Below are positions 18,666 to 48,276 of a stretch of 64,000 nt of DNA, piece by piece. A program made the translations under genes and the position numbers. The DNA comes from Microbacterium ureisolvens. GTDB lineage: Bacteria; Actinomycetota; Actinomycetes; Actinomycetales; Microbacteriaceae. The stretch covers positions 186,001 through 250,000 of the forward strand of contig NZ_JADIJE010000003.1 in NCBI RefSeq assembly GCF_015278315.1, read 5' to 3'. Numbering within the stretch: position 1 is the first letter of the stretch; each line of letters starts with the position of its first letter. The notes under the pieces are model-generated. The model made no database searches and was not told the DNA's origin. It saw only the letters and a program-made list of their open reading frames with translations.

Positions 18666-18704
18666 GCAACCCGCGCCTCTCCGACTTCAAGAAAGAGGAA
18701 CGAA

Positions 18705-20934: not shown

Positions 20935-21044
20935 CGAGAATGTCGACCACCTCACCGATGGGCGCACCTAGCCTCGACGCGACCATCGTCCGCAGTACGT
21001 CGCAGGACGTGCCCAGATTCCTGGCGCCCATCGCTGGACCGTTC

Positions 21045-22993: not shown

Positions 22994-23048
22994 GGGTGAA
23001 CTCCCGTTCTCTCTCAGTGTGGGCACGGCTTACATCCGTGTCTCGGTT

Positions 23049-26978: not shown

Positions 26979-27005
26979 GAGCGTCTCTCTTTCGTGTCCA
27001 GGCGG

Positions 27006-28226: not shown

Positions 28227-28265
28227 TCGCAGCCTCACGTTTCGTCACGGGAAGATTGCCTACAC

Positions 28266-28291
28266 GGGAGCGCCGCGCATGCGACGCTCCC
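28266..28291 (-). terminator. Possible attenuating stem-loop between dehydroquinase-like copy 2 and soxB
   Basis: A 7-bp stem GGGAGCG/CGCTCCC with a 12-base loop and no T-run. It may lower read-through into soxB or may only stabilise the upstream message. Confidence 0.35.
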
Positions 28292-28327
28292 GCCTCGTAC
28301 CCCCGGCGACGCCGAGGGCGGGGAATG

Positions 28328-28831: not shown

Positions 28832-28850
28832 CACATACTCCTTCGTCAAG
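28339..28850. repeat. 512-bp perfect direct repeat, copy 2
   Basis: Identical to 14278-14789, same orientation, offset 14,061 bp. Lack of even silent changes implies very recent duplication or ongoing gene conversion. Confidence 0.95.
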
Positions 28851-28883
28851 GTGGCGGGCGGACGGGAACTGTCCGCCAGAGCA

Positions 28884-28913
28884 AGAATATGCACAATCGA
28901 TATTCCGCCGCAA
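28884..28913 (-). promoter_or_regulatory. Promoter with embedded GntR-type operator (site g)
   Basis: On the minus strand: TTGCGG, 18-bp spacer, TATTCT. It faces dehydroquinase-like copy 2 and probably soxBDAG. Confidence 0.8.
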
Positions 28914-28931
28914 GACGAATCGGCAAGAGGC

Positions 28932-28960
28932 TTGCGGAGAATATCGATTGTGCATATTCT
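28932..28960 (+). promoter_or_regulatory. Promoter with embedded GntR-type operator (site h)
   Basis: TTGCGG (28932-28937), 17-bp spacer, TATTCT (28955-28960). It is back-to-back with site g and faces the dimethylglycine oxidase gene. The two palindromes are 53 bp apart centre to centre (about five helical turns), so cooperative binding is possible. Confidence 0.85.
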
Positions 28961-29031
28961 TCGTAGAGGCCCGTGGCCGTGCATCGACATCGTGCACGCT
29001 GCTAGGCAACTCACTTCGAACAGAGCAGTAG

Positions 29032-31530
<2,499 letters not shown>

Positions 31531-31583
31531 CGCCGCCGACCGACACGCGCCCATCGGGCACACACACTTCGAAGGAGGACCAC

Positions 31584-32456
31584 ATGTCCCTGCACGCAGA
31601 ATCGCTGCGCGATCACGCCTGCCTGATCGTCCACGGGCCGGATCAGCCCGGCCTTGTCGCGGCGGTCACCGACGTCATCTCCCGCAACAAGGGAAACATC
31701 GTCACGTTGGACCAATACTCCGACGATGCCAACGGAGGCAACTTCTTCCAGCGCGTCGTGTTCCATCGACGCGACCTGGCCGCCGCGTTCCCCGAGATCG
31801 AAGCCGACCTCGAGAAGTCGCTCGCGTCGTACGGCATGTCCTGGAAGCTCACCGATCAGTCCATCCCCAAGCGGATGGCGATCCTCGCGTCGACCAGCGA
31901 TCACTGCTTGCTTGAACTGCTGTGGCGGCACCGTCGCGGCGAGTTGAACGTGACGATCCCGATGGTGATCTCGAACCACACGAACACCGCGGAAGACGTG
32001 CGCTCCTTCGGCGTGCCCTTCTTCCACGTGCACTCGCAAGGGGCTGACAAGTCCGCGGCGGAAGCGAAGATCCTCGAGCTGTTGAAGGGGAACGTCGACT
32101 TCGTCGTGCTGGCGCGCTACATGCAGATCATCTCTGAGGACTTCCTCACGCAGATCGAGGTGCCCGTGATCAACATTCACCACTCCTTCCTGCCGGCGTT
32201 CATCGGAGCGGCGCCGTACCGCAAAGCCAAAGAGCGCGGCGTCAAGCTGATCGGGGCCACGTCGCACTACGTGACCGCGGATCTGGACGAGGGCCCGATC
32301 ATCGAGCAGGACGTGACCCGGGTCGACCACTCGCATTCCGCGGCGGAACTGCAGGCGCGGGGAGCTTTGGTAGAGCGTGCCGTGCTGTCCCGGGCGGTGC
32401 AGTGGCACGCGGAAGATCGGGTGATCCGCCACGGAAACCACACCATCGTGTTCTGA
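31584..32456 (+). CDS. purU: Formyltetrahydrofolate deformylase
   Basis: A 290-residue PurU: N-terminal ACT domain (about 10-85, HGPDQPGLVAAVTDVIS) and formyl-transferase-like catalytic domain with the conserved Asn, His and Asp in NIHHSFLPAF and TADLDEGPIIEQD. It hydrolyses 10-formyl-THF to formate and THF. Behind dimethylglycine oxidase and with FolD it closes the cycle that frees THF during methyl-group oxidation, an arrangement known from Arthrobacter. A strong GAAGGAGGACCAC precedes the ATG. Confidence 0.95.
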   Translation: MSLHAESLRDHACLIVHGPDQPGLVAAVTDVISRNKGNIVTLDQYSDDANGGNFFQRVVFHRRDLAAAFPEIEADLEKSLASYGMSWKLTDQSIPKRMAILASTSDHCLLELLWRHRRGELNVTIPMVISNHTNTAEDVRSFGVPFFHVHSQGADKSAAEAKILELLKGNVDFVVLARYMQIISEDFLTQIEVPVINIHHSFLPAFIGAAPYRKAKERGVKLIGATSHYVTADLDEGPIIEQDVTRVDHSHSAAELQARGALVERAVLSRAVQWHAEDRVIRHGNHTIVF

Positions 32457-32478
32457 CCCCGAGCCGGAGTGCGCGGAG

Positions 32479-33033
32479 ATGTCGGTGTCGAGGCCTGAGC
32501 GTGCCGCCGCGGCCGTCCGGGAACTCCTGCTCGCGCTCGGCGAGGACCCCGACCGCCCCGAGTTCCGGGCCACGCCAGAGCGCGTCGCGGAGCACTTCAT
32601 CGCGTCGTTCGCCGGGCAGGGGCGCAGTCTTACCGCCGTGATCGGCGAGCCGATCGCGATCTCCGACGGCGAGAGCGGCGAACTCGTCGCGCTCACCGGG
32701 ATCCCGTTCCGATCGACCTGTGAACACCACCTGCTGCCCTTCGACGGGCTGGCACACGTGTACTACGCACCGCAGCGCAGCATCGTCGGGTTCAGCCGGA
32801 TTGCGGCACTGGTCGAAGCGGCGTCCCTCCGTCCACAGCTGCAGGAGCGGTTGGGGGAGCAGATCGCGGGGGCGATCATGTCGATCCTCAAGCCGCGAGG
32901 AGTGGTCGTGCGACTGGAGGCGAGGCACGCGTGCGTCGCCTCCAGGGCGCCGACCGCGGCCGCCTCGCGGGCGGTCACGGTGGCGCTGCGCGGCACGATG
33001 CCGCCCGCCGCCTCCTACGCATTCCAGCCCTGA
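32479..33033 (+). CDS. folE: GTP cyclohydrolase I, divergent
   Basis: A 184-residue FolE-type protein. Zinc ligands C81 and H84 (CEHH) and C152 (RHACV) are present, as is the ERV...F start. It departs from canonical FolE: the signature after the zinc Cys reads VASRAP rather than MxxRGV, and the RRLQxQERL helix reads ASLRPQLQERL. It makes dihydroneopterin triphosphate, the first folate precursor; next to purU it would enlarge the THF pool when C1 flux rises. Probably a paralogue of a housekeeping copy. Start ATG 32479 or GTG 32485 (GGAG 6 bases upstream). Confidence 0.85.
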   Translation: MSVSRPERAAAAVRELLLALGEDPDRPEFRATPERVAEHFIASFAGQGRSLTAVIGEPIAISDGESGELVALTGIPFRSTCEHHLLPFDGLAHVYYAPQRSIVGFSRIAALVEAASLRPQLQERLGEQIAGAIMSILKPRGVVVRLEARHACVASRAPTAAASRAVTVALRGTMPPAASYAFQP

Positions 33034-33071
33034 GCCCCCCCCTCGAGGCTGGTGCGCAGGAGGCGCCGGAG

Positions 33072-34151
<1,080 letters not shown>

Positions 34152-34179
34152 TTACAGGCCGCGCTCGGAGTCTACCAAA

Positions 34180-34200
34180 AAATATGCACAATCGATATTA
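34180..34200 (-). promoter_or_regulatory. GntR-type operator between ilvC and gntR (site i)
   Basis: AAATATGCACAATCGATATT on the plus strand; the -10-like side faces ilvC. No TTG hexamer is correctly placed, so ilvC has a weaker or differently built promoter. Its position beside gntR supports autoregulation. Confidence 0.75.
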
Positions 34201-34348
34201 AGGGGGTTAGTGGTGTACGATTCTGACGCACGGAGTGACATACTCCGGGCCGAGGTTAGGTCGGGGATTCTCACGCGCCGCTGAAAAGGTGCCGGCGGAT
34301 CCGGTCGTATACTCACGACACGTCCGATCTGAGAGCAAGGAGGGGTCG

Positions 34349-35080
34349 ATGGCTGGTCCGACAGTACCCTTGGGTATCGTTCGAGACGAACGCTCAGCGT
34401 TGCGTCCGCCCGCACGCACCACCGCGGAGGCGATTGCGCAGTCGATCCGCGCGGACATCATCGGTGGCCGCTACGACGCCGGTGAGCGGCTTCGGCAGGT
34501 GGAGCTGGCAAAGCAGTACGAAGTGAGCACCACCCCGGTGCGTGAGGCGTTCGCAATCCTGCAGCGCCAGGGTCTGGTCCGCCTGCACCCGCAGCGTGGC
34601 GCCAGTGCGATCGTCCCGAACACGAAGGACCTCGAAGAGCTCTACGAGATCCGCGTCGAGCTCGAATGCCTCGCGGTGCAGCATGCGGCACGGAACTTCA
34701 CGCCCGCCGACGCGCCCGCGCTGCGCGAACTCATCGCGCAGATGCGGGTGTGCCGCGACGCCGACCAGTATGTCGAACTCAATCATCACTTCCACATGGG
34801 CATCTACCGGCTCGCGCAGCGCGAGCGTCTCGTGGAGATGATCGAGCAGCTGCGAATGGCATCCCAGGCCTACCTGCAGATCACATCGGATCGCGCGGTA
34901 ATCCTCGGTGACGCCGAGAACGAGCATGACGACATCCTCGATGCGTGCGAAGCGAACGATCCCGCCCGTGCGGCTGCGGCTACACGCGATCACCTGGGTC
35001 TGACCGTCGCCAACGCCGTCGCTCAGCTCGACCACGCTGACGCCACGCGCGGCCTCGCGTCGGCGCGTGCGATCCTGTAA
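34349..35080 (+). CDS. GntR-family regulator, FCD (FadR/VanR) subfamily; candidate regulator of the supercluster
   Basis: A 243-residue regulator. Winged helix-turn-helix at about residues 25-90 with the family hallmark YEVSTTPVREAFAILQRQGLV; an all-helical FCD effector domain at about 95-220 with candidate metal/effector His residues H149, H193 and H215. CAAGGAGGGGTCG sets the start. FCD regulators usually repress by binding short inverted repeats over promoters and release on binding an organic acid. It is the only GntR protein in the window and lies inside the zone where the palindrome recurs, next to site i. It is therefore the best candidate to bind all 12 sites (inference). Confidence 0.92.
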   Translation: MAGPTVPLGIVRDERSALRPPARTTAEAIAQSIRADIIGGRYDAGERLRQVELAKQYEVSTTPVREAFAILQRQGLVRLHPQRGASAIVPNTKDLEELYEIRVELECLAVQHAARNFTPADAPALRELIAQMRVCRDADQYVELNHHFHMGIYRLAQRERLVEMIEQLRMASQAYLQITSDRAVILGDAENEHDDILDACEANDPARAAAATRDHLGLTVANAVAQLDHADATRGLASARAIL

Positions 35081-35099
35081 CTCCGGCGACGGCCAACTG

Positions 35100-35453
35100 C
35101 TAGCGCAGCGTGCCGTCCGTGGTGCCGCGCCGCCGTGCCCTCCGGCGAAGATCGAACGGAAACTGCCGCACCGTGTAGCGCTTCGGGGCGCTGTGGTAGC
35201 TGAGAGCGGTCCGCGAGCGAATGCGGATCAAGCGGAAGATCGCGAACGTCGAAATCGCGAGCCATGCTCCGTTGACCGCCACCGAGGGCATCGCCCCATG
35301 GTGCGCGCCATTGATCAGTAGTGCGCACGAGCCGGCCACGTTCGCGAGCTGAAACCCGATCCCCGGCTGCATCCACCCCAGCGAGAGTGCGAAGTAGGCG
35401 GCAAGCACGATCGTCGTGCCTATCCATCCGATGATCTCGATCATCACGTTCAC
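35100..35453 (-). CDS. Small integral membrane protein, YgjV/CBU_0592-like
   Basis: 117 residues with three to four hydrophobic segments (IIGWIGTTIVLAAYFALSL, FQLANVAGSCALLINGAHH, AVNGAWLAISTFAIFRLI) and a basic C-terminal tail. The pattern resembles small membrane proteins of unknown function annotated as YgjV or CBU_0592 family. It lies between gntR and the PEP synthase operon; operator site j is 128 bp upstream on the plus side and could affect it. Function unknown. Confidence 0.7.
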   Translation of the reverse strand: MNVMIEIIGWIGTTIVLAAYFALSLGWMQPGIGFQLANVAGSCALLINGAHHGAMPSVAVNGAWLAISTFAIFRLIRIRSRTALSYHSAPKRYTVRQFPFDLRRRARRRGTTDGTLR

Positions 35454-35580
35454 AGTGCTTCTCCGTCGAGCTGGGTGCGGTGGCGATCCGGGCGCCTCAG
35501 CGCAGGGCGACTTCTGGCCGCGCGCGTGTGGCTGCGGGAGCCCAGGAACTGTTCCAATCCTGAATCTATCCAGTCTGATG

Positions 35581-35602
35581 CAATATGCACAATCGATATT
35601 CT
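35581..35602. promoter_or_regulatory. GntR-type operator (site j)
   Basis: CAATATGCACAATCGATATT followed by CT. It lies between the small membrane protein gene and the ppsR-ppsA operon. The TATTCT end reads toward ppsR but without a recognisable -35. Confidence 0.7.
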
Positions 35603-35689
35603 TCGGGAAACAGGCTACGATCCACGGAACAGTGTCGTTGTCAGCGGCGTTCGGCGTGGCCGGACGCCCGGGAGACGGAGTCGGAACGC

Positions 35690-35839
35690 ATGAGTGAAGA
35701 GAACGCGGGGTGGGTGGTTCCCCTCGATCGGCGTGGCGATCGCGACGATCGCGACGAAGATGCCCGGGTAGCGCCCGCGTTCGGTCGGTGGCTCAGCATC
35801 ATCAATGGAGGCGACGACACACACCGCGGGTCGGAATGA
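35690..35839 (+). CDS. 49-residue acidic ORF coupled to ppsR
   Basis: MSEENAGWVVPLDRRGDRDDRDEDARVAPAF... ends with FGRWLSIINGGDDTHRGSE; the stop overlaps the ppsR start as ATGA, so translation would be coupled. The N-terminal half is strongly charged with a run of Arg/Asp pairs, and a short amphipathic end follows. A GGAG lies slightly far upstream. I recognise no family. It could be a leader peptide or a small modulator of the PEP synthase system. Confidence 0.5.
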   Translation: MSEENAGWVVPLDRRGDRDDRDEDARVAPAFGRWLSIINGGDDTHRGSE

Positions 35840-36681
35840 CGCAGGAATCTGCTCCGCTGCACGCGGGCCCAGCAGAAGTTCGAGAGGCGTTCTTCGTCTC
35901 GGACAGCACCGGGATCACCGCCGAGACGCTCGGCAACGCGCTGCTCGCGAACTTTCCCGGGCTGCATTTCCATCGCCACACCGTCCCGTTCGTTGACACC
36001 CTCGAGGGTGCGCACGCGGTCGTAGCCGAGATCGACCGCGCGGCCGACGGCGGGCCGCTGCCCCTGATGTTCACGACCGTCAAAGCTCCGAATGTCCGCG
36101 GCGCATTGTTCGGCGCCCGCGCGGTGGCGATCGACCTGCTCGCAGGCCACCTCGTCGAGCTGGAGGAGGCGCTCGGCGCGACAGCGAGTCCGAAACTGAG
36201 CGGGTACCACGGCGTGGGCGACATCCAGCGGTATCACGCTCGCATGCGGGCCGTCGAGTACGCGATCGAGCACGATGACGGGCAGAGCTCACGGGCGCTC
36301 GAGGAGGCGGACGTCGTCATCATCGCCCCGTCACGCTGCGGCAAGACCCCCACGACGATGTACCTCGCCCTGCAATACGGACTGCTCGTCGCGAACTACC
36401 CGCTCACCGACGATGACTTCACGACCGACGGTCTGCCGCGAACCGTGGCGAAGTACGCCAGCCGCTGCTTCGGGCTGACCACCACGCCGCTGCGCTTGAG
36501 CCAGGTGCGCCACGAGCGGCTTCCGCACTCCCAGTACGCCAGCCTCGCGCAATGCACCCTCGAGGTGCGGCGGGCCGAAGACCTGTACCGGCGCAACCGG
36601 GTGCCCTTCGTCAACTCCTCGACCAAGAGCGTCGAGGAAATGTCCGCCGTGATTCTGCGGTCCATGCGACTGCGCGACTAA
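35836..36681 (+). CDS. ppsR: PEP synthase regulatory kinase/phosphorylase (DUF299)
   Basis: A 281-residue DUF299 protein. It begins EAFFVSDSTGITAETLGNALL, the family signature, and carries the P-loop-like APSRCGKTPTTMYLA around residue 160. The family phosphorylates a Thr on PEP synthase or PPDK with ADP to switch it off, and removes the phosphate with Pi to reactivate. Since the next gene is PEP synthase, it is called the PpsR type. Placement in the GntR-type regulon gives post-translational control on top of transcriptional control of carbon exit. Confidence 0.92.
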   Translation: MTQESAPLHAGPAEVREAFFVSDSTGITAETLGNALLANFPGLHFHRHTVPFVDTLEGAHAVVAEIDRAADGGPLPLMFTTVKAPNVRGALFGARAVAIDLLAGHLVELEEALGATASPKLSGYHGVGDIQRYHARMRAVEYAIEHDDGQSSRALEEADVVIIAPSRCGKTPTTMYLALQYGLLVANYPLTDDDFTTDGLPRTVAKYASRCFGLTTTPLRLSQVRHERLPHSQYASLAQCTLEVRRAEDLYRRNRVPFVNSSTKSVEEMSAVILRSMRLRD

Positions 36682-36705
36682 CCCCTTCAACGAGGAGAAG
36701 ATCCG

Positions 36706-39111
36706 ATGACCAACATTCTCTGGTTCGACGAGATCGGCATGAACGATCTCGACCGCGTCGGCGGCAAGAACGCCTCACTGGGCGAGATGGTTTCGCACCT
36801 CTCAGCGGCCGGTGTGCGTGTGCCCATGGGATTCGCCACCACCGCCGCTGCGTATGCGTCGTTCCTCGCCGCCGGCGAACTCGGCACCCGCATCCGCGAA
36901 GCCGTCTCGCAGCTGGACACCGACGACGTCACCGAACTCGCACAGGTGGGTTCCGCGGTGCGCGGGTGGGTGGAAGCGCAGCCGTTCCCGGACGGCCTGG
37001 AACGTGACATCCGCGATGCGTATGCGCGGCTCGTTTCGGAGGATCCCGACCCGGAGCAGGTCTCCTGGGCCGTGCGCTCCAGCGCCACCGCGGAGGACCT
37101 TCCGGACGCGTCGTTTGCGGGACAGCAGGAGACCTTCCTCAACATCGGCGGAATCGACAACGTGCTCGCCGCGATCAAGCACGTCTACGCGTCGCTGTAC
37201 AACGACCGCGCGATCGCGTACCGGGTCCACCACGGGTTCGATCACCACGAGGTGTCCCTCTCGGCCGGGGTGCAACGGATGGTCCGCTCCGATGTCGGCG
37301 CGTCGGGCGTGATGTTCACCGTCGACACCGAGTCTGGTTTCGATGACGTGGTGTTCATCACGAGCTCTTACGGGCTCGGCGAGGCGGTCGTGCAAGGCGC
37401 GGTGAACCCTGACGAGTTCTACGCCCACAAGCCCGCGTTGCGCGCCGGACGTCCCTCGGTCCTCCGCCGGACGGTGGGGGAGAAGGCCGTCGCGATGCGG
37501 TATGCCGACGGCCGGCATGCGGGAGGCAGCACCGTGTTCGCCGACGTTGCGTCCGCCGATCGTGTCCGCTTCTCCCTGAACGACGGTGAGGTCGAGGAAC
37601 TCGGCCGCATCGCCCTCGTTATCGAAGACCACTACGGCCGTCCGATGGACATCGAGTGGGCGAAAGACGGCGTGGACGGACGGCTTTACGTGCTGCAGGC
37701 CCGGCCCGAGACCGTTGTCTCACGCGAGTCCGGAAACGTCATGCGCCGGTTCGTGCTGCGTGAGAGTGCGGGCGCTGTTCTCGCGACTGGGCGGGCGATC
37801 GGGCAGCGGATCGGTGCCGGCCCGGTCAGCATCCTCAGTTCGGTCGAGCAGATGAGCGAGTTCGTACCAGGGAGCGTGCTTGTTGCCGACATGACGGACC
37901 CGGACTGGGAGCCGATCATGAAGAAGGCGTCGGCGATCGTCACCAACCGAGGGGGACGCACCTGTCACGCGGCGATCATCGCGCGCGAGCTCGGCATCCC
38001 CGCGGTAGTCGGCACCGCCTCTGCCACACGCACGCTCGTGAACGGGCAGCCGGTGACGGTCTCTTGCGCAGAAGGCGACGACGGCTACGTCTACGACGGG
38101 CTGCTCACCTTCGATGAAGAGGAGACGGAGCTGGATCGGATGCCGGAGCTGCCGGTGAAGATCATGATGAATGTCGGCACCCCGGAGCAAGCCTTCTCCT
38201 TCGCGAAGCTCCCGCACCGGGGGGTGGGATTGGCCCGCCTCGAGTTCATCATCAACCGGCAGATCGGCATCCACCCCCGCGCGTTGCTCGACCACGAGAG
38301 CGTGCCCGCAGCCGTGGCCGACGAGATTCGCACCCGCGTGGCCGCCTATCCGTCGCCGCGTGAGTACTTCGTGCAGCGCGTTGCCGAGGGTGTGTCCACC
38401 ATCGCCGCGGCGTTCTGGCCCGAACCCGTCATCGTCCGTCTCAGCGACTTCAAGTCGAACGAGTACGCCAATCTTCTCGGCGGCACGCTCTACGAGCCCG
38501 TGGAGGAGAACCCCATGCTCGGCTACCGCGGCGCATCACGCTACGTCTCGCCGGACTTCCGGGAGTGCTTCGACATGGAGTGCGAAGCGATGCGTCGTGT
38601 CCGCGACGACATGGGGTTGACGAATGTGAGGCTGATGGTTCCCTTCGTGCGGACGCTCGGCGAAGCGGAATCCGTCGTAGAGCTGCTCGCCGACAACGGA
38701 CTGCGACGCGGCGAGAACGGGCTGCAGCTGATCATGATGTGCGAGCTGCCATCGAACGCGGTGCTTGCCGATCGCTTCCTTGAGTACTTCGACGGCTTCT
38801 CGATCGGCTCAAACGACATGACGCAGTTGACGCTCGGCGTGGACCGGGACTCCGCCCTCGTCGCGTCGGCGTTCGACGAGCGTGACCCTGCCGTGCTGGC
38901 GATGCTCGAGCTCGCGATCGACGCGTGCCGGCGTCAGGGCAAGTACGTCGGGATCTGCGGACAGGGCCCGTCCGACTATCCGGAACTGGCGGGCTGGCTC
39001 CTCGATCACGGCATCGACTCCATCTCGCTCAACCCTGACACCGTGGTCGAAACATGGCTGCGGCTGTCCCAGCAGATCGAAGCAGGGAAGGTCGAAGCCG
39101 CCATTCGGTAA
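36706..39111 (+). CDS. ppsA: Phosphoenolpyruvate synthase (pyruvate, water dikinase)
   Basis: 801 residues: N-terminal ATP-grasp-type domain ([23 protein letters not shown]), central phosphohistidine domain with H421 in [13 protein letters not shown], and C-terminal PEP-binding barrel ending in [14 protein letters not shown]. Length and motifs fit PpsA, not the 874-residue PPDK. Reaction: pyruvate + ATP + H2O to PEP + AMP + Pi. It feeds pyruvate from serine deamination into gluconeogenesis, needed when a C1/C2-type amine is the carbon source. ribosome site GAGGAGAAG. A new operator-promoter starts 7 bp after the stop. Confidence 0.93.
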
Positions 39112-39117
39112 TCATCA

Positions 39118-39146
39118 TTGACGAGAATATCGATTGTGCATATTCT
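39118..39146 (+). promoter_or_regulatory. Promoter with embedded GntR-type operator (site k)
   Basis: TTGACG (39118-39123), 17-bp spacer, TATTCT (39141-39146), full palindrome 39124-39146. It drives the SDR and serine ammonia-lyase genes. Confidence 0.87.
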
Positions 39147-39242
39147 GGCAGGCGAGCTCATCACAAGCAGTTGAGCGCGAGGGGCACAGATGCCCCACAG
39201 CGTCTCCACTAGACATCCGCAAAGACAAGAGAGAGAGCAGCA

Positions 39243-40001
39243 ATGGAACTGGAAGGCAAGATCGCGGTCGTCACAGGCGGTGGCCAGGGGATCGGGCGGG
39301 GGATCGTTCAGCGGTTTCTGGAGGAGGGCGCCACTGTGGCCATTCTCCAGAACAAGCCGCTCGAAGACGACCTGGCGGGCGACGATCGGGTCCTCGGAAT
39401 CGATGTCGACCTGACGAACGTGGCCGACGCGGCCGCCGCCATTGACCAGGTCGCGGCCACCCTGGGCGGGATCGACATCCTCGTGAACAACGCCGGTGTG
39501 AGTGCCGAGTGGACTGTTGCGGAGGTGCAGCCCGAGCAGTGGGACTTCATGATGGCGGTGAACTTGAAGGCGCCGCTGTTCCTGACCCAGGCCGCGCTGC
39601 CTCACCTCAAGCGACGGGGAGGCGGCAGCATCATCAACACCGGCTCGGTGGAGGGCCTGGCGTCGAACCCCTTCCACGCCGTCTACAGCTCCTCGAAGGC
39701 GGGAATCCACGGTCTCACCAAGGCCCTTGCCGTCGATCTCGGCGAGTTCGGCATCCGCTGCAACGCCATCGCGCCTGGCTACATCCTGACTGCGCTCACC
39801 GAGGCGTACGTGGCGTCTCTGCCGGACCCGGATGCGGCGTGGCTCAACATCAATCGGATCCATCCCGTGGGCCGCATCGGCGACCCCATCGATATCGGCG
39901 GTCTCGCCGTCTACCTTGCCAGCGATCGCTCCACCTTTGTGTCCGGCCAGGTGATCGCCGTCGATGGCGCCCGGATGGCAAAGCTGTCCGCGCCGCTCTA
40001 A
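39243..40001 (+). CDS. SDR family oxidoreductase
   Basis: A 252-residue classical SDR: TGGGQGIG, NNAGVSAEW, catalytic Ser in NTGSVEG, YSSSK, APGYILTALTE. A late segment (DPIDIGGLAVYLASDRSTFVSGQVIAVDGA) is typical. Not one of the GMG trio; it resembles gluconate/2-deoxygluconate-type dehydrogenases. First gene behind site k and 105 bp before sdaA. Substrate unknown. Confidence 0.9.
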   Translation: MELEGKIAVVTGGGQGIGRGIVQRFLEEGATVAILQNKPLEDDLAGDDRVLGIDVDLTNVADAAAAIDQVAATLGGIDILVNNAGVSAEWTVAEVQPEQWDFMMAVNLKAPLFLTQAALPHLKRRGGGSIINTGSVEGLASNPFHAVYSSSKAGIHGLTKALAVDLGEFGIRCNAIAPGYILTALTEAYVASLPDPDAAWLNINRIHPVGRIGDPIDIGGLAVYLASDRSTFVSGQVIAVDGARMAKLSAPL

Positions 40002-40106
40002 GCAGGGGCATTCGATTCTCGATCGGGCGAGCCCGCAGCACAGTCGCGACATCATTCAGCCCCGCTCGCCGGCTGAGCGATGAGGTCGCATCGATGGAGA
40101 ACACGG

Positions 40107-41474
40107 ATGATCAGTGCGCTGGAGCTCTACAGCATCGGGATCGGCCCCTCGTCCTCCCACACCGTGGGACCGATGCGCGCCGCCCTGGCCTTCGTCGATG
40201 AACTGAGGGCGACGGGGCAGGTCGGCCAGGTCGGACGCATCCAGGTCGACCTCTTCGGGTCGCTGGGCGCGACAGGCAAAGGGCACGGCACGGACAAGGC
40301 GGTCGTGCTCGGGCTGCTCGGTGAGCGCCCCGACGAAGTCGATCCGCGAAGCGCTGACGCGAAGGTCGACAACGTGCTGCGAGCGGGAGAGCTGGCGCTA
40401 GGGGGCGAATCGGTCATTCCTTTCGCCGCGAAGTCGGACATCACCATGCATTTGGGAAGGTCGCTACCCGCCCATCCCAATGCGATGACGCTCGCGGCAT
40501 ACGACCACGCTGGTGACGTGCTCAGCGAATCGACGTTCTACTCCATCGGTGGCGGGTTCATCGTCACGGACGAGGAGATCCACGCGCCGACCCCGGGAAC
40601 GGAAGGCGACGTGCCGTTGCCGTTCTCCACGGCCGCGGAGCTGCTCGCGCACTGCGCACAGCACGGCATGAGCGTGAGCGAGGTCATGCGTCGCAACGAA
40701 CTTGCTCGGGTCAGCGAAACCGACCTCGACGAGCAGCTGCTGCGAATCTGGTCGGCCATGCAGGAGTGCATCGCGAACGGCATCGGGCGAAATGACGAAG
40801 TGCTCCCAGGAGGGCTCAACGTCTGGCGACGAGCCCCCGGGCTCCACCGGCGGCTGTCCGAGGCGGCTGCGGGCGACCCGCTTCACGCGATGGAATGGGT
40901 GAACCTGTACGCACTCGCCGTCAACGAAGAGAACGCGTCCGGTGGTCGCGTCGTCACGGCCCCGACCAATGGCGCAGCCGGCATCATTCCGGCGGTGCTC
41001 AGCTACTACGTCAACTTCGTGCCCGGAGCGGATGATGCCGGCGTCATCCGCTTCCTGCTCGCCGCGTCGGCCGTCGGGGTCCTCTTCAAGACGAATGCGT
41101 CGATCTCGGGCGCTGAGGTTGGATGCCAAGGAGAGGTGGGCTCCGCGTGCTCGATGGCGGCTGCAGGCTTGGCTGAGGTCCTCGGGGGCACGCCGGCGCA
41201 GGTCGAGAACGCGGCCGAGATCGGGATCGAGCACAATCTCGGGCTCACGTGCGACCCCATCGGCGGACTCGTGCAAATCCCGTGCATCGAACGAAACGCG
41301 ATCGCCAGCGTGAAGGCCATCAATGCCGCGCGAATGGCGCTCCACGGGAACGGAACACATCGAGTCTCGCTGGATCAAGCGATCCGCACCATGCGAGACA
41401 CCGGCGCCGACATGCTGTCCAAGTACAAAGAAACGTCACTGGGCGGCCTCGCCGTGAACGTGGTCGAGTGCTGA
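40107..41474 (+). CDS. sdaA: L-serine ammonia-lyase, iron-sulfur dependent
   Basis: 455 residues, single-chain type: N-terminal beta domain with [18 protein letters not shown] and C-terminal alpha domain with the Fe-S Cys ligands in [16 protein letters not shown] and [16 protein letters not shown]. It converts serine to pyruvate and ammonia in the cytoplasm. Sarcosine oxidation gives glycine; glycine plus methylene-THF gives serine by a GlyA not encoded here; this enzyme then makes pyruvate for PpsA and IlvC. ATG 40107 has GGAGAACACGG upstream. Operon with the SDR, site k. Confidence 0.95.
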
Positions 41475-41564
41475 CGGTCTAGGCATCCAGGGCCAACGCG
41501 GTCGTGCGGACGGGTTCAGAACCTGGTCACGCCCCAACGAAGTTTGCCTAACGAAAGGAACACT

Positions 41565-41969
41565 ATGTCAGTCAACCTCGCAGATGCCCGCCGTGTGATC
41601 GAAGCCGCTGAGAAGCGCGCCGACGAGATCGGCCAGCCCATGAACATCGCCGTGGTCGATGCGGGCGGCAACCTCGTCGCGCACGTACGCCAGGACGGCG
41701 CCTGGATCGGCAGCATCGAGATCTCGATCAGCAAGGCGTGGACGTCGAAGGCGTTCGACATCTCGACGAAGGACCTCGGCGACAATTCGCAGCCGACGCA
41801 GCAGTTCTTCGGCATCCACACCACCAACGCGCACGGCCGCGGCGTCGCCATCTTCGCCGGCGGCGTGCCGCTCAGCCGCGACGGCAAGGTCGTCGGTGCG
41901 GTGGGCGTCAGCGGCGGCTCGGGCGAGCAGGACCAGACCGTCGCGGAAGCAGGCGCGGGGGCCCTGTGA
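41565..41969 (+). CDS. GlcG/HbpS-family heme-degrading-like protein
   Basis: A 134-residue GlcG/HbpS (DUF336) protein: NLADARRVIEAAEKRADEIGQPMNIAVVDAGGNLVAHVRQDGAW and GGVPLSRDGKVVGAVGVSGGSGEQDQ are the family core. Members bind heme or corrinoids, or accompany dehydratases and aldehyde-metabolising enzymes; a precise role cannot be given. ATG 41565 is preceded by AAAGGAACACT. A 5'-truncated near-copy lies 1.3 kb downstream at 42914. Confidence 0.88.
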   Translation: MSVNLADARRVIEAAEKRADEIGQPMNIAVVDAGGNLVAHVRQDGAWIGSIEISISKAWTSKAFDISTKDLGDNSQPTQQFFGIHTTNAHGRGVAIFAGGVPLSRDGKVVGAVGVSGGSGEQDQTVAEAGAGAL

Positions 41970-42294
41970 CGTGGCCCCCGCGTCGCGCTTCATCACACCG
42001 ACGTGGGGCCTGAGTCATTAGGTGAAGATCACCGGAATCGACATCTTCGAGCATCGCCTCGTGCGGACCTAACCGCATCGCATGGCCAGCCCGTTCATCA
42101 CCAACCTCGCTATGGCGGAGAGGTCCACCGACTTGGGAAGTACCGGCGGGGGACCGCTCGTGTTCGCGTGCAATCTCCGGTACCACTGGCGGTCCAAGTC
42201 CCACAAAGGTTCGCCGGAGAGATGAGCGGCGCCGCTCAACTCGACTACCAGTCCGCCGAACGACACGCTACTAGGTAACCACGACGAGGAAACG
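41970..42294. other. Decaying intergenic stretch
   Basis: No intact gene. It contains the first 16 codons of an enolase-superfamily gene ending in a stop (42022-42072); the rest shows no reading frame that resembles a known family. Confidence 0.5.
42022..42072 (+). pseudogene. N-terminal stub of a mandelate racemase/enolase-superfamily gene
   Basis: GTG AAG ATC ACC... reads VKITGIDIFEHRLVRT and then TAA. The MKITxIDxFxHRL pattern is the usual first strand of mandelate racemase/muconate-cycloisomerase proteins. No continuation is seen in any frame, so the rest has been deleted. Confidence 0.5.
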
Positions 42295-42735
42295 ATGCGC
42301 TCGCAACTTCAGCCTGACGTTCTTGCTTGGCACGACAATGCCCAGGCCCAGCTCGACGGTCACCTGAGTCAGGTGTTCGCAGCACTCGCGAACGACGACC
42401 GTCTCGCCATATTGGACGTCCTGCGAGAGAGTCGCGACACAGAATGCTCGATCGAGCGAATCGCGGATTCCATCGAAATGTCGCGCTTCGCGACGTCACG
42501 ACACCTGAGGATTCTTCGGCAGGCCGGGTTGGTCGATGGTCGGCGGAGCGGGCACAAGTTCCTCCATCGGCTTGCTCAGTCACGCTTCGACGACATCGAC
42601 GACTGGCTCCTGGACTACCTTATCGAGGCCGCCAACGGGCGCATTCTGACCGGTCCACCTCAGGGGCGCGACTTGGTGGCTCCGCACGGACGCGCTGATG
42701 GCGAGGTCGTGACGGCGGATCAGGTAGGTCAATAA
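42295..42735 (+). CDS. ArsR-family transcriptional regulator
   Basis: 146 residues with an ArsR winged helix-turn-helix at about 20-95: QVFAALANDDRLAILDVLRES, then SRFATSRHLRILRQAGLVDGRRSGHKFLHRL. No metal-binding Cys set is seen, so the signal may not be a metal. GACGAGGAAACG precedes the ATG. It lies between the complete and truncated GlcG-like copies, in the frayed end of the cluster. Targets unknown. Confidence 0.85.
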   Translation: MRSQLQPDVLAWHDNAQAQLDGHLSQVFAALANDDRLAILDVLRESRDTECSIERIADSIEMSRFATSRHLRILRQAGLVDGRRSGHKFLHRLAQSRFDDIDDWLLDYLIEAANGRILTGPPQGRDLVAPHGRADGEVVTADQVGQ

Positions 42736-42913
42736 CCTCAACGGTCCGAAGAAGCACTTGTGCCGCAGCCGCAGCATCTTCTCGGCCACGTCCCGGGACG
42801 GTTTGGTTGGCTGGTGGTGCGGTGCTCCGGGACGGTCATCAGCCCCTGGACCTCCTCGGCTTCGTATCCCCTCGAGTCATCGTTCGCCTGCCGGATCACT
42901 TAGCTCGCCACGT

Positions 42914-43291
42914 CGTGTGATCGAAGCCGCTGAGAAGCGCGCCGACGAGATCGGCCAGCCCATGAACATCGCTGTGGTCGATGCGGGCGGCAACCTCGTC
43001 GCGCACGTGCGCCAGGACGGCGCCTGGATCGGCAGCATCGAGATCTCGATGAGCAAGGCGTGGACGTCGAAGGCGTTCGACATCTCGACGAAGGACCTCG
43101 GCGACAATTCGCAGCCGACGCAGCAGTTCTTCGGCATCCACACCACCAACGCGCACGGCCGCGGCGTCGCGACCTTCGCCGGCGGCGTGCCGCTCAGCCG
43201 CGACGGCAAGGTCGTCGGCGCGGTGGGCGTTAGCGGGGGGTCGGGCGAGCAGGACCAGACCGTCGCGGAGGCCGGCGCCGCGGAGTTCTGA
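42914..43291 (+). pseudogene. 5'-truncated duplicate of the GlcG/HbpS-like gene
   Basis: From the GTG at 42914 the sequence follows 41592-41960 with only about ten single-base differences, giving I-to-M and I-to-T changes and a different last few residues (AAEF). The nine N-terminal residues and the ribosome site of the full copy are missing. Translation from the GTG is conceivable but unsupported. Confidence 0.75.
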
Positions 43292-43450
43292 ATCGGCGGC
43301 AACACCGCCGGGGTCGTTACGATCGCCACGGGTGTCCGGGTCGCGACGAGGCACAGGCAAGGCAGGACTGTCGCTGTGAGACCTGTCCGACCATCGGTCA
43401 GGTTTCGGCTGAACCGCCCATGGGTTACCGAATCGCGTCGCTTGGCCGAC

Positions 43451-43480
43451 TTGACTGGTAATATCGATTGTGCATATTAT
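43451..43480 (+). promoter_or_regulatory. Orphan promoter with embedded GntR-type operator (site l)
   Basis: TTGACT (43451-43456), 18-bp spacer, TATTAT (43475-43480). It is among the best promoter matches in the set but no gene follows on the plus strand before the Lrp gene, which is on the other strand. Confidence 0.75.
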
Positions 43481-43510
43481 GGTCATGCGTACACAACGCG
43501 CCTTCTCAGG

Positions 43511-43544
43511 GATGCCGCAGTCAACGCCGATCGGCTGCGGCATC
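43511..43544 (+). other. Hairpin about 30 bases downstream of the orphan promoter
   Basis: GATGCCGCAG and CTGCGGCATC form a perfect 10-bp stem with a 14-base loop. It could be a small-RNA element or an attenuator left from a lost gene; no T-run follows. Confidence 0.35.
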
Positions 43545-43973
43545 TCCGAGTCGGGCATGGTCGCAGAACACCGCCCTGCCCATGACATGGTCTTCGGGTC
43601 GGCGTCTCACGGCGAAGTCGTCGCACGCAGACGCCCCGCGGTACATGCCGCGACTCGGTGCCAGGCGGCTGGCGGCGCCAAAATGTGGTCGCGCTCCGCC
43701 ATCTGCGGCGACCTCCCCGACGTATTCCACTGTCGGTGAGGGACACGCAGATTCGGTAGGCCCCGGTGACGGCGACTTGCTCCATGCCGCCCCTCCTGAC
43801 CCGCTACGCGGCATGGATCACATGATTGGAGCGGGTAGTTGAGCCCCCTCGTCATGGCTGGATGGCGTTGGTCGTTGTCGGCAGGCGGCCCAACTCCGAG
43901 ATCTCTCCGATTCCGTTTTACGGTGGCCCTGGGGCGAGGTGCAGTGCACGACCTGCTCAAGGGTCGACCATGC

Positions 43974-44498
43974 TTACGCGAATTCGGCGGCGACCCCATT
44001 GCGGTGGTACTCGAAGATGATGCTCGTGCGTGTTGACGCAACGGCTTGATGGGCCGAGAGGTGCTCGACGACGAAGCGGCGCAGTTCGGAGGAGTCCGCG
44101 ACGGCGATGTGCACGAGGTAGTCATCCGCGCCGCCGACGAAGAACAGTTGCAAGACCTGCGGGAGTGCTCGCACGACGTCGGCGAACTGGGTGATGCTTT
44201 CCTGGCGGAAGCCCGGGCGGAGGGTGACGCCGATCATCGCCTGCAGGCCGTTGCCGATTGATGATTGGCTCACCGCGGCGTGGAACCCTGCGAGGACACC
44301 GCGCTCGATGAGCGCGCGCACGCGGGTGTGCGCCGTCGATGGGGCCACTCCCGCCGCCGCGGCGAGTTCCTGATTCGTGATGCGCGCGTCGGCGGACAGA
44401 CGGCGCAACAGCTCGGCATCGACCTCGTCTAAGCCGCTGTTCCGAAGATCATTCGAGGAAGGGCGCCCAGAATCACCTTTTCGTGTCAAACCGTCCAT
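43974..44498 (-). CDS. Lrp/AsnC-family transcriptional regulator
   Basis: 174 residues: an N-terminal extension of about 20 residues, AsnC-type helix-turn-helix (LDEVDAELLRRLSADARITNQELAAAAGVAPSTAHTRVRAL) and a C-terminal RAM domain (VVRALPQVLQLFFVGGADDYLVHIAVAD). GAAAGGAGTTCTG sets the start at 44498. Divergent from alanine dehydrogenase with a 101-bp gap, a conserved actinobacterial pairing in which the regulator activates ald in response to alanine or related amino acids. Confidence 0.92.
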   Translation of the reverse strand: MDGLTRKGDSGRPSSNDLRNSGLDEVDAELLRRLSADARITNQELAAAAGVAPSTAHTRVRALIERGVLAGFHAAVSQSSIGNGLQAMIGVTLRPGFRQESITQFADVVRALPQVLQLFFVGGADDYLVHIAVADSSELRRFVVEHLSAHQAVASTRTSIIFEYHRNGVAAEFA

Positions 44499-44599
44499 CA
44501 GAACTCCTTTCGCACAGAATGATCTTCCAAAAGTTTGAGGTACTGCCGAAGAAAGTGCGAGTCTTACCTCGTCTTCCGACTGCTGAGAAGGGCACACAG

Positions 44600-45700
44600 A
44601 TGCGCGTTGGCGTTCCCACTGAGATCAAGAACAACGAGAACAGGGTTGCGATCACTCCTGCCGGGGTGGATGCGCTAGTCTCTCGCGGCCACGAGGTGCG
44701 CGTGCAGCAAGGGGCCGGCCTTGGGTCACGTATCAGCGACGAGGCCTACCAGGCTGCCGGCGCGATCATTGCTGAGACCCAGGACCAGGTGTGGGCGGAG
44801 TCCGACCTGATCACTAAGGTGAAGGAACCGATCGCTGCCGAGTACGGCTACCTCCGAGAGGACCAGCTGGTCTTCACCTACCTGCACCTGGCCGCCGATC
44901 GCCCCCTCACCGATGCGCTCCTCGATGCCGGCGCGACTGCGATCGCCTATGAGACGGTCCAGCTCGAGGACCGTTCCCTGCCGCTGCTGTCGCCGATGAG
45001 CGAGGTGGCCGGACGCCTGTCGATCTCCGTCGGCTCCTACTTCCTCATGCGCGCTACCGGCGGCCGCGGCACACTCCTCGGCGGGGTGGCAGGGACCCGC
45101 CGAGCCAAGGTCGTCGTCATCGGTGGAGGTGTCGCCGGCGAACACGCCGCCGCGAACGCTCTCGGCCTCGGCGCCGAAGTGACCGTCATCGACCTGTCCC
45201 TGCCACGACTGCGCGAGCTTCAGCACCGCTACACCGGTGCCCTGCAGACCCGCGCATCCAGCCGGTGGGAGATCGCAGACCAGATCGCAGACGCCGACCT
45301 GGTCGTCGGCTCCGTTCTCATCCCGGGAGCGGCCGCACCAAAGCTCGTCACCGACGAGATGGTCGCGCACATGAAGCCCGGCTCCGTGCTCGTGGACATC
45401 GCCATCGACCAGGGCGGCTGCTTCGAGGGATCACGACCGACCACCCACGACAACCCCACATTTCCCGTCCACGAATCGGTGTATTACTGCGTCGCGAACA
45501 TGCCGGGCGCAGTGCCAGAGACCTCCACGCGTGCGCTCACCAACGCAACGCTGCCCTACCTGACCGCGCTCGCCGACAAGGGATGGCAAGACGCCGCAAA
45601 TGACAACCTGGCTCTTGCTCGGGGAGTCAACACGCACGCAGGACGAGTGACGAACTCCGGAGTGGCCGCCGCATTCGGAATGGCAGCTGCAGCGATCTAG
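44600..45700 (+). CDS. ald: Alanine dehydrogenase
   Basis: A 366-residue Ald: N-terminal [23 protein letters not shown], catalytic Lys and His of the TKVKEP and YLHLA segments, NAD motif [16 protein letters not shown], and [21 protein letters not shown] near the end. It catalyses reversible oxidative deamination of alanine to pyruvate. ATG 44600 follows GAGAAGGGCACACAG. It links amino nitrogen and pyruvate metabolism but carries no copy of the GntR-type palindrome; the divergent Lrp protein is its likely regulator. Confidence 0.95.
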
Positions 45701-46386
45701 CCGTCCCCTGCGATGCGACGCGTACGACTCCACGCTCCCAGCGGCGGCGCGCAACCATTGCTGGGCTCACGGCGCGTCGAGGAGTTGACGTGAGGGTCTA
45801 CCGGGAGTGTGGTGGGCGTGAAGCTGCTCGGATCCTTCGGGCCCACCTGGTGCCCACGAATGACTCGGATCCGTGCGGAACGGGGCCTGAGAACGAGTGA
45901 GTCAGGCAGACCCCGTTCCACGAGATGCCGCGGAATCTCGCATGAGGGAGATCGAGTCGGATCGAGGCGGACACCAATCGGCGGAGTTCAAATCCCTCCG
46001 TCTCGGCCGGTGACCGTCCCCGCGTGGTCAGTCGGACGCTGGGCGCAATCCAGCCGCAGACTGTAGCGTTCCGCCCAGGGACGATGGCGTGCGAGGGCGC
46101 ACCCGACGTGTCATACGTGCATTCCGTTCCGGGCCCGATGCAACCACCGAGTCGATGACGAGAATGTGTGCACCAGTGTGTGAACCAGCTGCTTCGTTCC
46201 CAGTGTTCACAAGGGATCGACGACGGTTCCCGCTTGACTACGGATCAGACGGTTCAGAAGGCGCTCATTTCAGCCGCTGACCGCCACGCGTCCACTGTCG
46301 AAAACTCAGGCATGCAAAAGCCGTTGCATCCACGCCCACGCTCGGACACGATAAAACCGGCACTGACCTGCGAAGAAGGAGAGATC
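45701..46386. other. Non-coding stretch near the putative island end
   Basis: 686 bases without a credible gene. It has a stem-loop (GGAACGGGG at 45877-45885 with CCCCGTTCC at 45911-45919, plus CCTGA/TCAGG inside), a bipartite repeat (45841-45860) and an imperfect tRNA T-arm-like stretch near 45981-46010. Confidence 0.5.
45841..45860 (+). repeat. Bipartite repeat GCCCACnnnnTGCCCACGAA, copy 1
   Basis: The same 20-bp layout recurs at 46752-46771 with 16 of 20 bases equal. Within each copy the GCCCAC unit repeats 11 bp apart, one helical turn. Such tandem units near a tRNA end resemble integrase arm sites. Confidence 0.4.
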
Positions 46387-46563
46387 ATGGCCGGCAAGTA
46401 CGAGCTGTACAAGGACTCGGCGGATGGCTTCCGATTTCGTCTGAAGGCCGCGAATGGAGAAGTCGTCGCGACTTCCGAGTCCTATGTTTCCAAGTCTGGT
46501 GCGCAGAGCGGGATCGAGTCGGTTAAATCGAACGCCAGCTCCCCGGTCGTCGATCTCACCTGA
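46387..46563 (+). CDS. DUF1508 (YegP-like) small protein
   Basis: 58 residues, one YegP repeat: GKYELYKDSADGFRFRLKAANGEVVATSESYVSKSGAQSGIESVKSNA. The single-repeat form is common in actinobacteria; function is not established. GAAGAAGGAGAGATC gives a strong ribosome site and fixes the start, so the longer upstream frame is not used. It stands alone between two non-coding stretches just left of the tRNA fragment. Confidence 0.88.
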   Translation: MAGKYELYKDSADGFRFRLKAANGEVVATSESYVSKSGAQSGIESVKSNASSPVVDLT

Positions 46564-46875
46564 ACCCTGAACAGGGTCTATGGCGCGACTGCGGCCGCGC
46601 ATGCCGCCGCACTCGAACACGGAGTCCCCTGATGGCAAGGACACGAGCCAGCGCAGTCAGGGTGACCCCGGCCGTCGATCTCAGTGACTCAAGGGGCACC
46701 TTGCCATGGGCGCTCAGTGTCGAACGAGGTGGCTCGGCGGGGGCTGCGCGTGCCCACAGTTTGCCCACGAACCGCGCAGAACGGCGCCGATCGGCGCGTC
46801 TGGAGACATGGCCAGATCCGCGAATTTCCGCGGTTATCGGACCATATCGGGTCGACGGCAGACCCAGGGTCAGTC
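46564..46875. other. Non-coding stretch left of the tRNA fragment
   Basis: No gene is supported. It contains copy 2 of the bipartite repeat (46752-46771), and no tRNA 5' half (no D-arm or matching acceptor strand). Confidence 0.5.
46752..46771 (+). repeat. Bipartite repeat GCCCACnnnnTGCCCACGAA, copy 2
   Basis: Matches 45841-45860. It lies 104 bp before the tRNA-Met fragment; copy 1 lies a similar distance (about 120 bp) before the T-arm-like stretch at 45981. Confidence 0.4.
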
Positions 46876-46917
46876 CTCATAATCGTGAGGTCGCGGGTTC
46901 AAGCCCCGCTCCTGCTA
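46876..46917 (+). other. 3' half of tRNA-Met(CAT): probable attachment site
   Basis: Starting at the anticodon loop: CTCATAA (anticodon CAT at 46878-46880), 3' anticodon strand TCGTG, variable AGGTC, perfect T-arm GCGGG-TTCAAGC-CCCGC (46893-46909), acceptor strand TCCTGCT and discriminator A46917. The 5' anticodon strand (CACGA expected, CAGTC present), D-arm and 5' acceptor are absent. Truncation in the anticodon loop is typical of tyrosine-integrase crossover. Confidence 0.75.
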
Positions 46918-46924
46918 CAGATCG

Positions 46925-46950
46925 AAACCCCGGCCCCGCCGGGGTTTTTT
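46925..46950 (+). terminator. Rho-independent terminator after the tRNA fragment
   Basis: AAACCCCGG (46925-46933), 5-base loop, CCGGGGTTT and further Ts. It is the kind of terminator that follows an intact tRNA gene, suggesting that sequence from the fragment rightward is the original chromosome. Confidence 0.8.
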
Positions 46951-46998: not shown

Positions 46999-47601
46999 TC
47001 AGTCTCCGACGCTCCCCGGGAGCACATCCTCCGCCCGCACCGACACCGAGTCCAGCCGCGGATCGTTGCGCAGCTGACGAAAGATCGGCAGTTCGGCGGC
47101 CACGATGAGCGAATCCGGGTACAGCCGCCCGCCCCACGCCAACCGGTTCCCGGCATCCCAGGCGAACTCGGGCACGCGGCGTCCCGCCTGCACGTCAGCG
47201 GGGGTGAGATCGGCGGCGAAGTAATCCTCCCCGTGGACACGGACGGATGAGTCGGTGGGCACCTCGCCGTACCCCACCCAGCGCAGGCATCGCAGCGCCA
47301 GATCGCCGATCGCATCGCGCAGTGCTTCGGCGGTCGCTCCGTCCAGCCGGCCCATGCACGAGACGAGATCCCGGAGCTCGGAGTGCTCCGCGACGATCCG
47401 CTGTGTCGCCTCGAACCAGTTGAGCGAGGCCGAATGCTCCTCGACGTCGACATGCCGAGACCACCGCACGACCTTGTCGGTGCGGTCGATGAAAGGCAGA
47501 TACACCCGCAGCATCGGAAGATCGCGGTGGGATGCCGGAATGAAATCACGGGCGAGCGTGCGCCATCCCGACTCGTCCAGCTCCGCGGTCGCCTCGGTCA
47601 T
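46999..47601 (-). CDS. Hypothetical protein
   Basis: 200 residues from MTEATAELDESGW. No family recognised. It is soluble, acidic and rich in Trp and Arg pairs (FIDRTDKVVRWSRHVDVEEHSASLNWFEATQRIVAEHSEL), with no signal peptide or membrane segment. The start is uncertain; the larger in-frame ORF runs through the upstream VOC gene and is not credible. First gene on the chromosomal side of the tRNA fragment. Confidence 0.6.
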   Translation of the reverse strand: MTEATAELDESGWRTLARDFIPASHRDLPMLRVYLPFIDRTDKVVRWSRHVDVEEHSASLNWFEATQRIVAEHSELRDLVSCMGRLDGATAEALRDAIGDLALRCLRWVGYGEVPTDSSVRVHGEDYFAADLTPADVQAGRRVPEFAWDAGNRLAWGGRLYPDSLIVAAELPIFRQLRNDPRLDSVSVRAEDVLPGSVGD

Positions 47602-47829
47602 GTCATCGACCGTAGCGGCGGGTGCACCGCGGTCGCGACGACCTTTTCGGCGGCCGGCAACGGGTGCCTCGATCTCGAGATCGCCCCCGCTTCCTCGGAC
47701 GGCTCCGACGGGATCGGCTGAGTCCGCGCTTCTCGAGCGGAGGACGCCCGTTCCGCGCGTCCCTTCTGCCATCGGTGCTCGCGCGAGAAGATGTGCGTGG
47801 TCGCTCAGCCCACTGGACGAGGAGCTTTC

Positions 47830-48276
47830 ATGAACGAACAGGCGCAGCCCGCCTCGCTGTACGTGCAGATTCCGTACCGCGACGCGCCCGCCGCGCTTCG
47901 CTGGCTGGAGCAGGCGTTCGGTCTCACCACGACGATGGAATGGCCCGACGACGACGGTGGCATCCAGCATGCCGAGATGCGCCTCGGCGACGCGGCGTTC
48001 ACAGTCTTCTCCGATCGCGCCGGGTACGTCCGCCCCGAGCCGCGGGGCGATTCCGTCGGATTCGGCGTGGCCTTCACTCTCGCCTCAGCCGATGAGGTCG
48101 ACCGGATCTTCGACTCCGCGATCGCGGCCGGTGCGGTCGCGGTCATCGAGCCGACCGACACCGAGTGGGGAAACCACCGCTGCCGGGTGCGCGATCCGGA
48201 GGGATACGAGTGGACGTTCGGCACCCACAAGCCCGGCGTCCCGGCGGAGTGGTCGGACGCCGACCAGGAGTGGTGA
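47830..48276 (+). CDS. VOC-family (glyoxalase/bleomycin-resistance-like) protein
   Basis: 148 residues with paired beta-alpha-beta-beta-beta modules: SLYVQIPYRDAPAALRWLEQAFGL, HAEMRLGDAAFTVFSD, then FTLASADEVDRIFDSAIAAGA and WGNHRCRVRDPEGYEWTFGTH. This is the PhnB-like group of the vicinal-oxygen-chelate superfamily. GAGGAGCTTTC precedes the ATG. Substrate unknown. Confidence 0.88.
   Translation: MNEQAQPASLYVQIPYRDAPAALRWLEQAFGLTTTMEWPDDDGGIQHAEMRLGDAAFTVFSDRAGYVRPEPRGDSVGFGVAFTLASADEVDRIFDSAIAAGAVAVIEPTDTEWGNHRCRVRDPEGYEWTFGTHKPGVPAEWSDADQEW

Follow-up and report, generated by a model that had tools for sequence, protein, structure and literature searches.

In the Islander account of genomic islands integrated in tRNA genes (PMC4383910), an island is defined by a regenerated tRNA gene and a displaced fragment of it, with the 3' fragment on the same strand at the other end and the integrase inside, and at the 'A' sites the matched part starts at the anticodon loop. 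The locus described here is alike in each of these respects, and differs in nothing essential; the island here is large and holds the relic of a second element. ICEs of the MobF/T4SS kind share with it an integrase, a relaxase, a coupling protein, a VirB4/SCO6880-family block and partition genes, but it differs from them in its 88-kb amine and amino-acid catabolic cargo with operator-like sites of its own, and its transfer is a prediction from its genes. CIMEs and accretion are described in PMC5704250, which cites Pavlovic 2004 and Bellanger 2011 for CIME-ICE accretion; the present case resembles such accretion in several target-gene fragments, a decayed integrase and cargo beside an ICE backbone, but here the middle fragment does not reproduce the core of the ICE and is enclosed by its matching arms. 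Among the titles listed in searches of the literature on Microbacterium ICEs, genomic islands and tRNA-Met integration, and on conjugation in Microbacteriaceae, none describes the element and none is concerned with an ICE of Microbacterium. The kind of element is already known; a description of this one was not found.

The window, the whole 64,000-nucleotide stretch analysed, corresponds to C29:186001-250000 of a Microbacterium genome (G000) of 4.49 Mb in 35 contigs. The first-pass annotation had read 46876-46917 as the 3' half of a tRNA-Met(CAT), running from anticodon loop to discriminator base, preceded by no 5' half and followed at once by a terminator, and had placed to its left an island that might carry the neighboring supercluster. 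The features around this border are:

1..46875, no strand: right-hand third of the island, catabolic cargo (Pfam domains)
46168..46563, plus strand: last predicted island gene, encoding a DUF1508 protein whose last 58 aa are identical (58/58) in G077
46238..46931 (C29:232238-232931), plus strand: right end of the element, 2 differences in 694 bp (0.29%) from G077
46750..46768, plus strand: GTGCCCACAGTTTGCCCAC, candidate arm-type integrase sites, 107 bp before the right fragment
46876..46923, plus strand: displaced 3' part of tRNA-Met, very probably the attR core, 48/48 against C29:96935-96982
46924..46948, plus strand: rho-independent terminator, hairpin of 11 pairs, -18.5 kcal/mol, z -3.39
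46999..47970, minus strand: first gene called beyond the island, without a Pfam match; 18 of the 246 other genomes of the genus have relatives

The description of the fragment proved exact. Its tRNA-derived portion, 46876-46917, runs from nt 32 of tRNA-Met to the discriminator base, and identity to the intact gene and the four bases past it extends to 46923, giving a 48-bp shared core that reads CTCATAATCG to ACAGATC. Because neither ARAGORN nor Rfam at gathering cut-offs detects a tRNA in the window, the fragment is without a 5' half, as claimed, and the terminator does begin at the next base. A 121-bp query searched against the whole genome matched itself, C29:96936-96991 (E 2.0e-21) and C29:143589-143625 (E 4.2e-11). 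The former match overlaps an intact tRNA-Met(CAT) gene called by ARAGORN at C29:96904-96978, beside a tRNA-Thr gene, 136 kb left of the fragment on the same contig and strand; the name is ARAGORN's, and the anticodon CAT alone cannot tell elongator tRNA-Met from other CAT tRNAs. A chance origin of the fragment is excluded.

A tyrosine-integrase gene (C29:97098-98228; 376 aa; Phage_integrase, SAM-like and arm-binding domains), oriented towards the tRNA, ends about 120 bp past the intact gene. Its product contains HDLRH, LGH and Y motifs, which we take to be the catalytic motifs of tyrosine recombinases. The intact tRNA-Met with an identical 3' half and the integrase adjoining it are thus both present where the first-pass annotation had looked for them, to the left of the window, and its placement of the island on that side of the fragment holds. 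TTGCCCAC occurs twice between intact tRNA and integrase (C29:97051 and 97062), and it lies near both element ends also in Microbacterium trichothecenolyticum DSM 8608 (G077) and M. yannicii PS01 (G019); lone internal copies number one in 160 kb of G000, two in the G077 stretches and two in G019. These repeats look like arm sites that the integrase would bind. That the fragment arose instead as a chance resemblance, or as a tRNA duplication made without integration, is hardly credible against the 48/48 identity in the same orientation, the integrase beside the intact copy and the recurrence of this arrangement in other species.

The fragment is very probably the attR of a 136-kb ICE in the tRNA-Met gene, reaching from C29:96904 to approximately C29:232923, with its last 46.9 kb in the window. 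The same-strand downstream fragment, the integrase inside at one end and a G+C differing from the host are those of a tRNA island, and relaxase, coupling protein and T4SS ATPase are those of an ICE at the level of genes. Judging from this anatomy, the tyrosine integrase would have recombined attP with the anticodon-loop end of the tRNA gene, such that the element would have supplied a replacement 3' half and terminator at the left while the native 3' half and terminator would have been pushed to the right. We infer that the terminator at 46924-46948 is the native tRNA-Met terminator displaced by the island; the full-length tRNA-Met genes of relatives are likewise trailed by similar terminators. 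Excision would join the two 48-bp cores into a circle, which the MobF-type relaxase would nick, and passage through the T4SS would take the catabolic regulon along.

After the integrase, the left half of the island (97-143.6 kb) encodes ParA, a Zeta-toxin-like protein, ParB and AbiTii, then a 1011-aa TrwC/MobF relaxase-helicase, an IS110 transposase and a transfer block comprising TraG/VirD4, a VirB4-like ATPase, an SCO6880-family protein, a protein with seven hydrophobic stretches (7-TM) and an M23 peptidase. The relaxase scores 108.7 bits with Pfam TrwC (cut-off 25) and 94.3 with NCBIfam MobF, just below the cut-off of 100; for the coupling protein and T4SS ATPase, TraG-D_C gives 95 (cut-off 22) and T4SS-DNA_transf 65.8 (cut-off 20.1); the SCO6880 family is matched at 222.7 (cut-off 60) and VirB4 CD1110-like at 43.5, below its cut-off of 325. 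Since a MobF-type relaxase, a coupling protein and a VirB4/SCO6880-type block lie inside the interval, it resembles an ICE with the supercluster as cargo. The genes for integrase, relaxase and coupling protein are uninterrupted open frames, and the island is probably conjugative, judging from its gene content. Defence- or toxin-antitoxin-like genes (Zeta toxin, AbiTii, DUF4365) lie within C29:102973-123668 of the conjugation half.

The cargo occupies the 88 kb of C29:143.6-232 kb. The supercluster does lie inside the island, as had been suggested, in an element of 136 kb that starts far outside the window. Named from their domains, from which substrates are inferred, the cargo genes encode proline racemase and DHDPS-family proteins, DAO-family and molybdopterin oxidoreductases, an E1 dehydrogenase, OpuAC proteins, a sarcosine-oxidase-like alpha chain, a protein with dimethylglycine dehydrogenase domains, M24/creatinase-like peptidase, serine dehydratase, PPDK, a GAPDH-like protein, KARI and alanine dehydrogenase. 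The Pfam scan covered 68 proteins of C29:90-250 kb, a stretch in which a simple gene caller gave 151 genes; 61 of the 68 are inside the island. G+C is 66.3% in the left half (97-143.6 kb) and 65.5% in the cargo, compared with 71.0% in nine stretches elsewhere (178 kb), 73.2% in the left flank and 67.7% in the right. Full-length relatives of an 829-aa cargo protein (29041-31530) occur in 7 of 197 other genomes (best 63%), and a full-length search found none in G077 or G019, so the cargo is patchy.

Several cargo genes resemble one another. Two dehydroquinase-II-like genes (14267-14770 and 28328-28831), each near an operator-like site, contain 300-nt copies that are 99% identical, and the pair is a recent duplication inside the cargo. 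Two HbpS-like genes (41565-41969 and 42917-43291) share 300-nt stretches at 98% identity, and three related genes (377-1291, 1662-2582 and 18705-19628) are 71-75% identical in shared stretches, the trio being typed as OpuAC from 377-1291, its sole member scanned.

The first-pass annotation had also seen palindromic sites that stop at 43.5 kb, in keeping with the border. A strict palindrome search gave no family of three or more; the sites emerge as imperfect repeats, presumably ATATGCACAATCGATAT, and do fit the border, with all 11 within the island and the rightmost at 43460-43478. With one mismatch allowed, the 17-bp operator-like site ATATNCACAATCGATAT has 11 matches genome-wide, all at C29:173.4-229.5 kb and so 11 of 11 inside the island, against none for a reversed control. 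Our own gene calls put all 11 copies of the site, AATATGCACAATCGATATT, between genes:

43460..43478, minus strand: operator-like site, rightmost copy, exact 19-bp form
10766, 14811, 15706, 16345, 28886, 28940, 34181, 35582 and 39126: other exact 19-bp copies
C29:173426: the eleventh match, with one mismatch

The 19-bp form was found, at up to five mismatches, neither in 178 kb of other G000 stretches nor in the G077 and G019 stretches. The operator-like sites are private to the island.

Integrase matches of at least 91% occur in 3 of 247 genomes of the genus, namely G000, G077 (99%) and G019 (91%), the next being 59%, and all three integrases adjoin tRNA-Met. M. trichothecenolyticum carries an element of the same type in the same tRNA gene, and its shared core is likewise 48 bp long (62 bp in M. 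yannicii). Its flank left of the tRNA is 80.4% identical to that of G000, with differences up to C29:96902; from the tRNA on, C29:96979-103300 holds 23 differences (0.36%), and this near-identical left block of 6.5 kb stops near C29:103452, inside the Zeta-toxin gene. At the right end, divergence returns at 46932 (C29:232932), on the native side, 8 bp past the 48-bp core. Between these ends the transfer block is 89.0% identical, and the fetched G077 stretches contain no cargo gene of C29:143626-232150 at 50% or above and no blastn match to cargo of 150 bp or more; the G077 element is spread over two contigs and its middle is only partly seen.

Left 6.5 kb and right 0.7 kb would be adjacent in the excised circle as one segment of about 7 kb, so a single exchange of approximately 7.1 kb would explain both near-identical ends. 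The integration module thus seems to be shared with the M. trichothecenolyticum element through a recent exchange. A broader reading, to which we give somewhat less than an even chance, is that Microbacterium tRNA-Met ICEs are modular: a 7-kb integration and partition module, split into left and right ends when integrated and continuous across attP in the circle, would be swapped whole, and a slot after the conjugation block would take whole catabolic superclusters with private regulons. Its evidence is the equal, very low divergence at the two ends around an 89% block and unrelated cargo, and it would imply exchange between excised or plasmid-like circles. A plasmid origin of the left module was rejected, the best plasmid match covering 7%; the relaxase matches 1,476 plasmid records, all below 60%, the best at 57% over its first half, and the integrase has 10 relatives in viral contigs, at 57% or less.

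The M. yannicii relative is a single 59-kb unit with similar left and right arms and a relaxase that is 59% identical. At 1e-6 it has no gene of the G000 transfer block, except an M23 gene that matches the chromosomal M23, and so not every relative is clearly an ICE of the G000 type.

The island could be an old, immobile remnant whose fragment marks a border and nothing more, a reading that would suit the IS110 transposase in the conjugation half and the broken second integrase described below. We consider this improbable, given that the integrase, relaxase and coupling-protein genes are open, that both 48-bp cores are identical, and that both ends reach 99.6-99.7% identity to those of a species in which the chromosomal flank stands at 80%.

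The 136-kb ICE contains a third tRNA-Met fragment. It lies at C29:143589, at the junction of backbone and cargo, is 36 nt long and begins at nt 40, 8 bp past the stop of a winged-helix gene (143257-143580) common to G077 (79% aa). Within C29:143589-145000 it precedes an excisionase-like gene and then an integrase gene from another class, which is broken: its second half is in another frame and ends early. After the winged-helix gene G077 has unrelated DNA, and no middle fragment was found in the G077 stretches. Five other genomes contain fragments that start at nt 38-40 (six in all; G008, G011 with two, G121, G180 and G199), and those of G011 (twice) and G121 lie beside an integrase 38-40% identical to the first half of the broken one, the comparison giving matches at 3 of 17 loci and a fourth, weak one in L150. 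Because such fragments elsewhere adjoin integrases like the relic's, a second class of tRNA-Met element was probably once present.

We rejected the reading that the middle fragment is an ordinary att copy belonging to the same integrase, since its match begins only at nt 40 and no arms accompany it. A different tRNA-Met element may have inserted in the ICE after the 143257-143580 gene and then decayed, which would be compatible with the main explanation and which we judge an even bet: the nt 38-40 fragments elsewhere with their 38-40% identical integrases, the frameshifted and shortened second half, and the unrelated DNA in G077 after the conserved gene speak for it, but in G011 and G121 the integrase is on the opposite side of the fragment from that in G000, and the relic's own right end was not found. 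Insertion at a secondary site may have brought the second-class element into the ICE, or else a fusion by deletion.

Alternatively, accretion could have set two elements in tandem, an ICE of 46.6 kb between the tRNA and C29:143589 and an island of 89 kb reaching on to 46876, making the supercluster a CIME-like passenger. The third fragment with its broken integrase and excisionase-like gene at the junction is suggestive here, and PMC5704250 describes how decayed elements accrete at a single att site. We nevertheless find a tandem rather unlikely. A passenger of the CIME type would lie between att sites of the ICE's own core type. The middle fragment lacks the anticodon-loop part, beginning at nt 40 instead of nt 32, and to its left is ICE backbone without TTGCCCAC arms; a plain tandem fits less well because the middle piece is without nt 32-39 and arms. 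Moreover, the right end is common to G077, where no middle fragment was found, and G019 has the same kind of arms around its one 59-kb unit.

Displaced tRNA-Met fragments recur across the genus. In 10 further genomes, 11 loci (L143-L153) have a full-length tRNA-Met followed by one or two same-strand 3' fragments 0.8-19.4 kb away. Gene and fragment share one contig in at least 13 genomes (G000 and G019 included), a count and not a rate, these genomes having been chosen by eye for two matches on one contig, with hits on different contigs, and a second hit of 21 bp in G010, left out; the fragment is downstream on the same strand in 13 of 13. Since 13 genomes show displaced downstream fragments, tRNA-Met is a hot spot in the genus. 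The fetched stretches of G121, G180 and G199 hold the fragment only, without an intact gene. G011 (C1:1376-89168) presents a tandem array, the full gene and two fragments at 44-kb steps, each beside a second-class integrase. Among 22 loci of the genus scanned, tRNA-Thr precedes tRNA-Met in 18, and the upstream side holds an M23-peptidase gene in 18 of these 22; three of the other four are without an intact tRNA-Met and one is at a contig end. By starting position, the displaced fragments form two or more classes, and the integrases next to them differ between classes in the cases examined.

An empty site joining both G000 flanks was not found in searches with the 46999-47970 gene (247 genomes of the genus) and with 46925-49700 (366). 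Nine fetched flank loci (3.5-3.9 kb each; eight with the 46999-47970 gene, one a LacI region) contain no tRNA gene, and in ten relatives that were fetched the DNA after a full-length tRNA-Met is unlike the right flank, save in G147; islands of their own may lie there. Relatives with a full tRNA-Met after tRNA-Thr carry other DNA to its right, in several cases a permease/HxlR block that in G000 is on contig C10. In G147 a relative of the 46999-47970 gene follows tRNA-Met by about 400 bp on the strand opposite to that in G000, and therefore this is no clean empty site. The right flank itself (46932-64000; G+C 67.7 vs 71.0%), with a first gene rare in the genus, may be another acquisition; its G+C and the presence of that gene in only 19 of 247 genomes suggest that it may be an older one.

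A large amine and amino-acid catabolic supercluster and all 11 matches of its operator-like site reside in one element of mobile anatomy, and because the supercluster and its sites are together, a complete nutritional lifestyle could be passed on at once. Ends that are almost identical, around middles that differ, offer a clear and testable case of module exchange in the ICEs of this actinobacterial genus.
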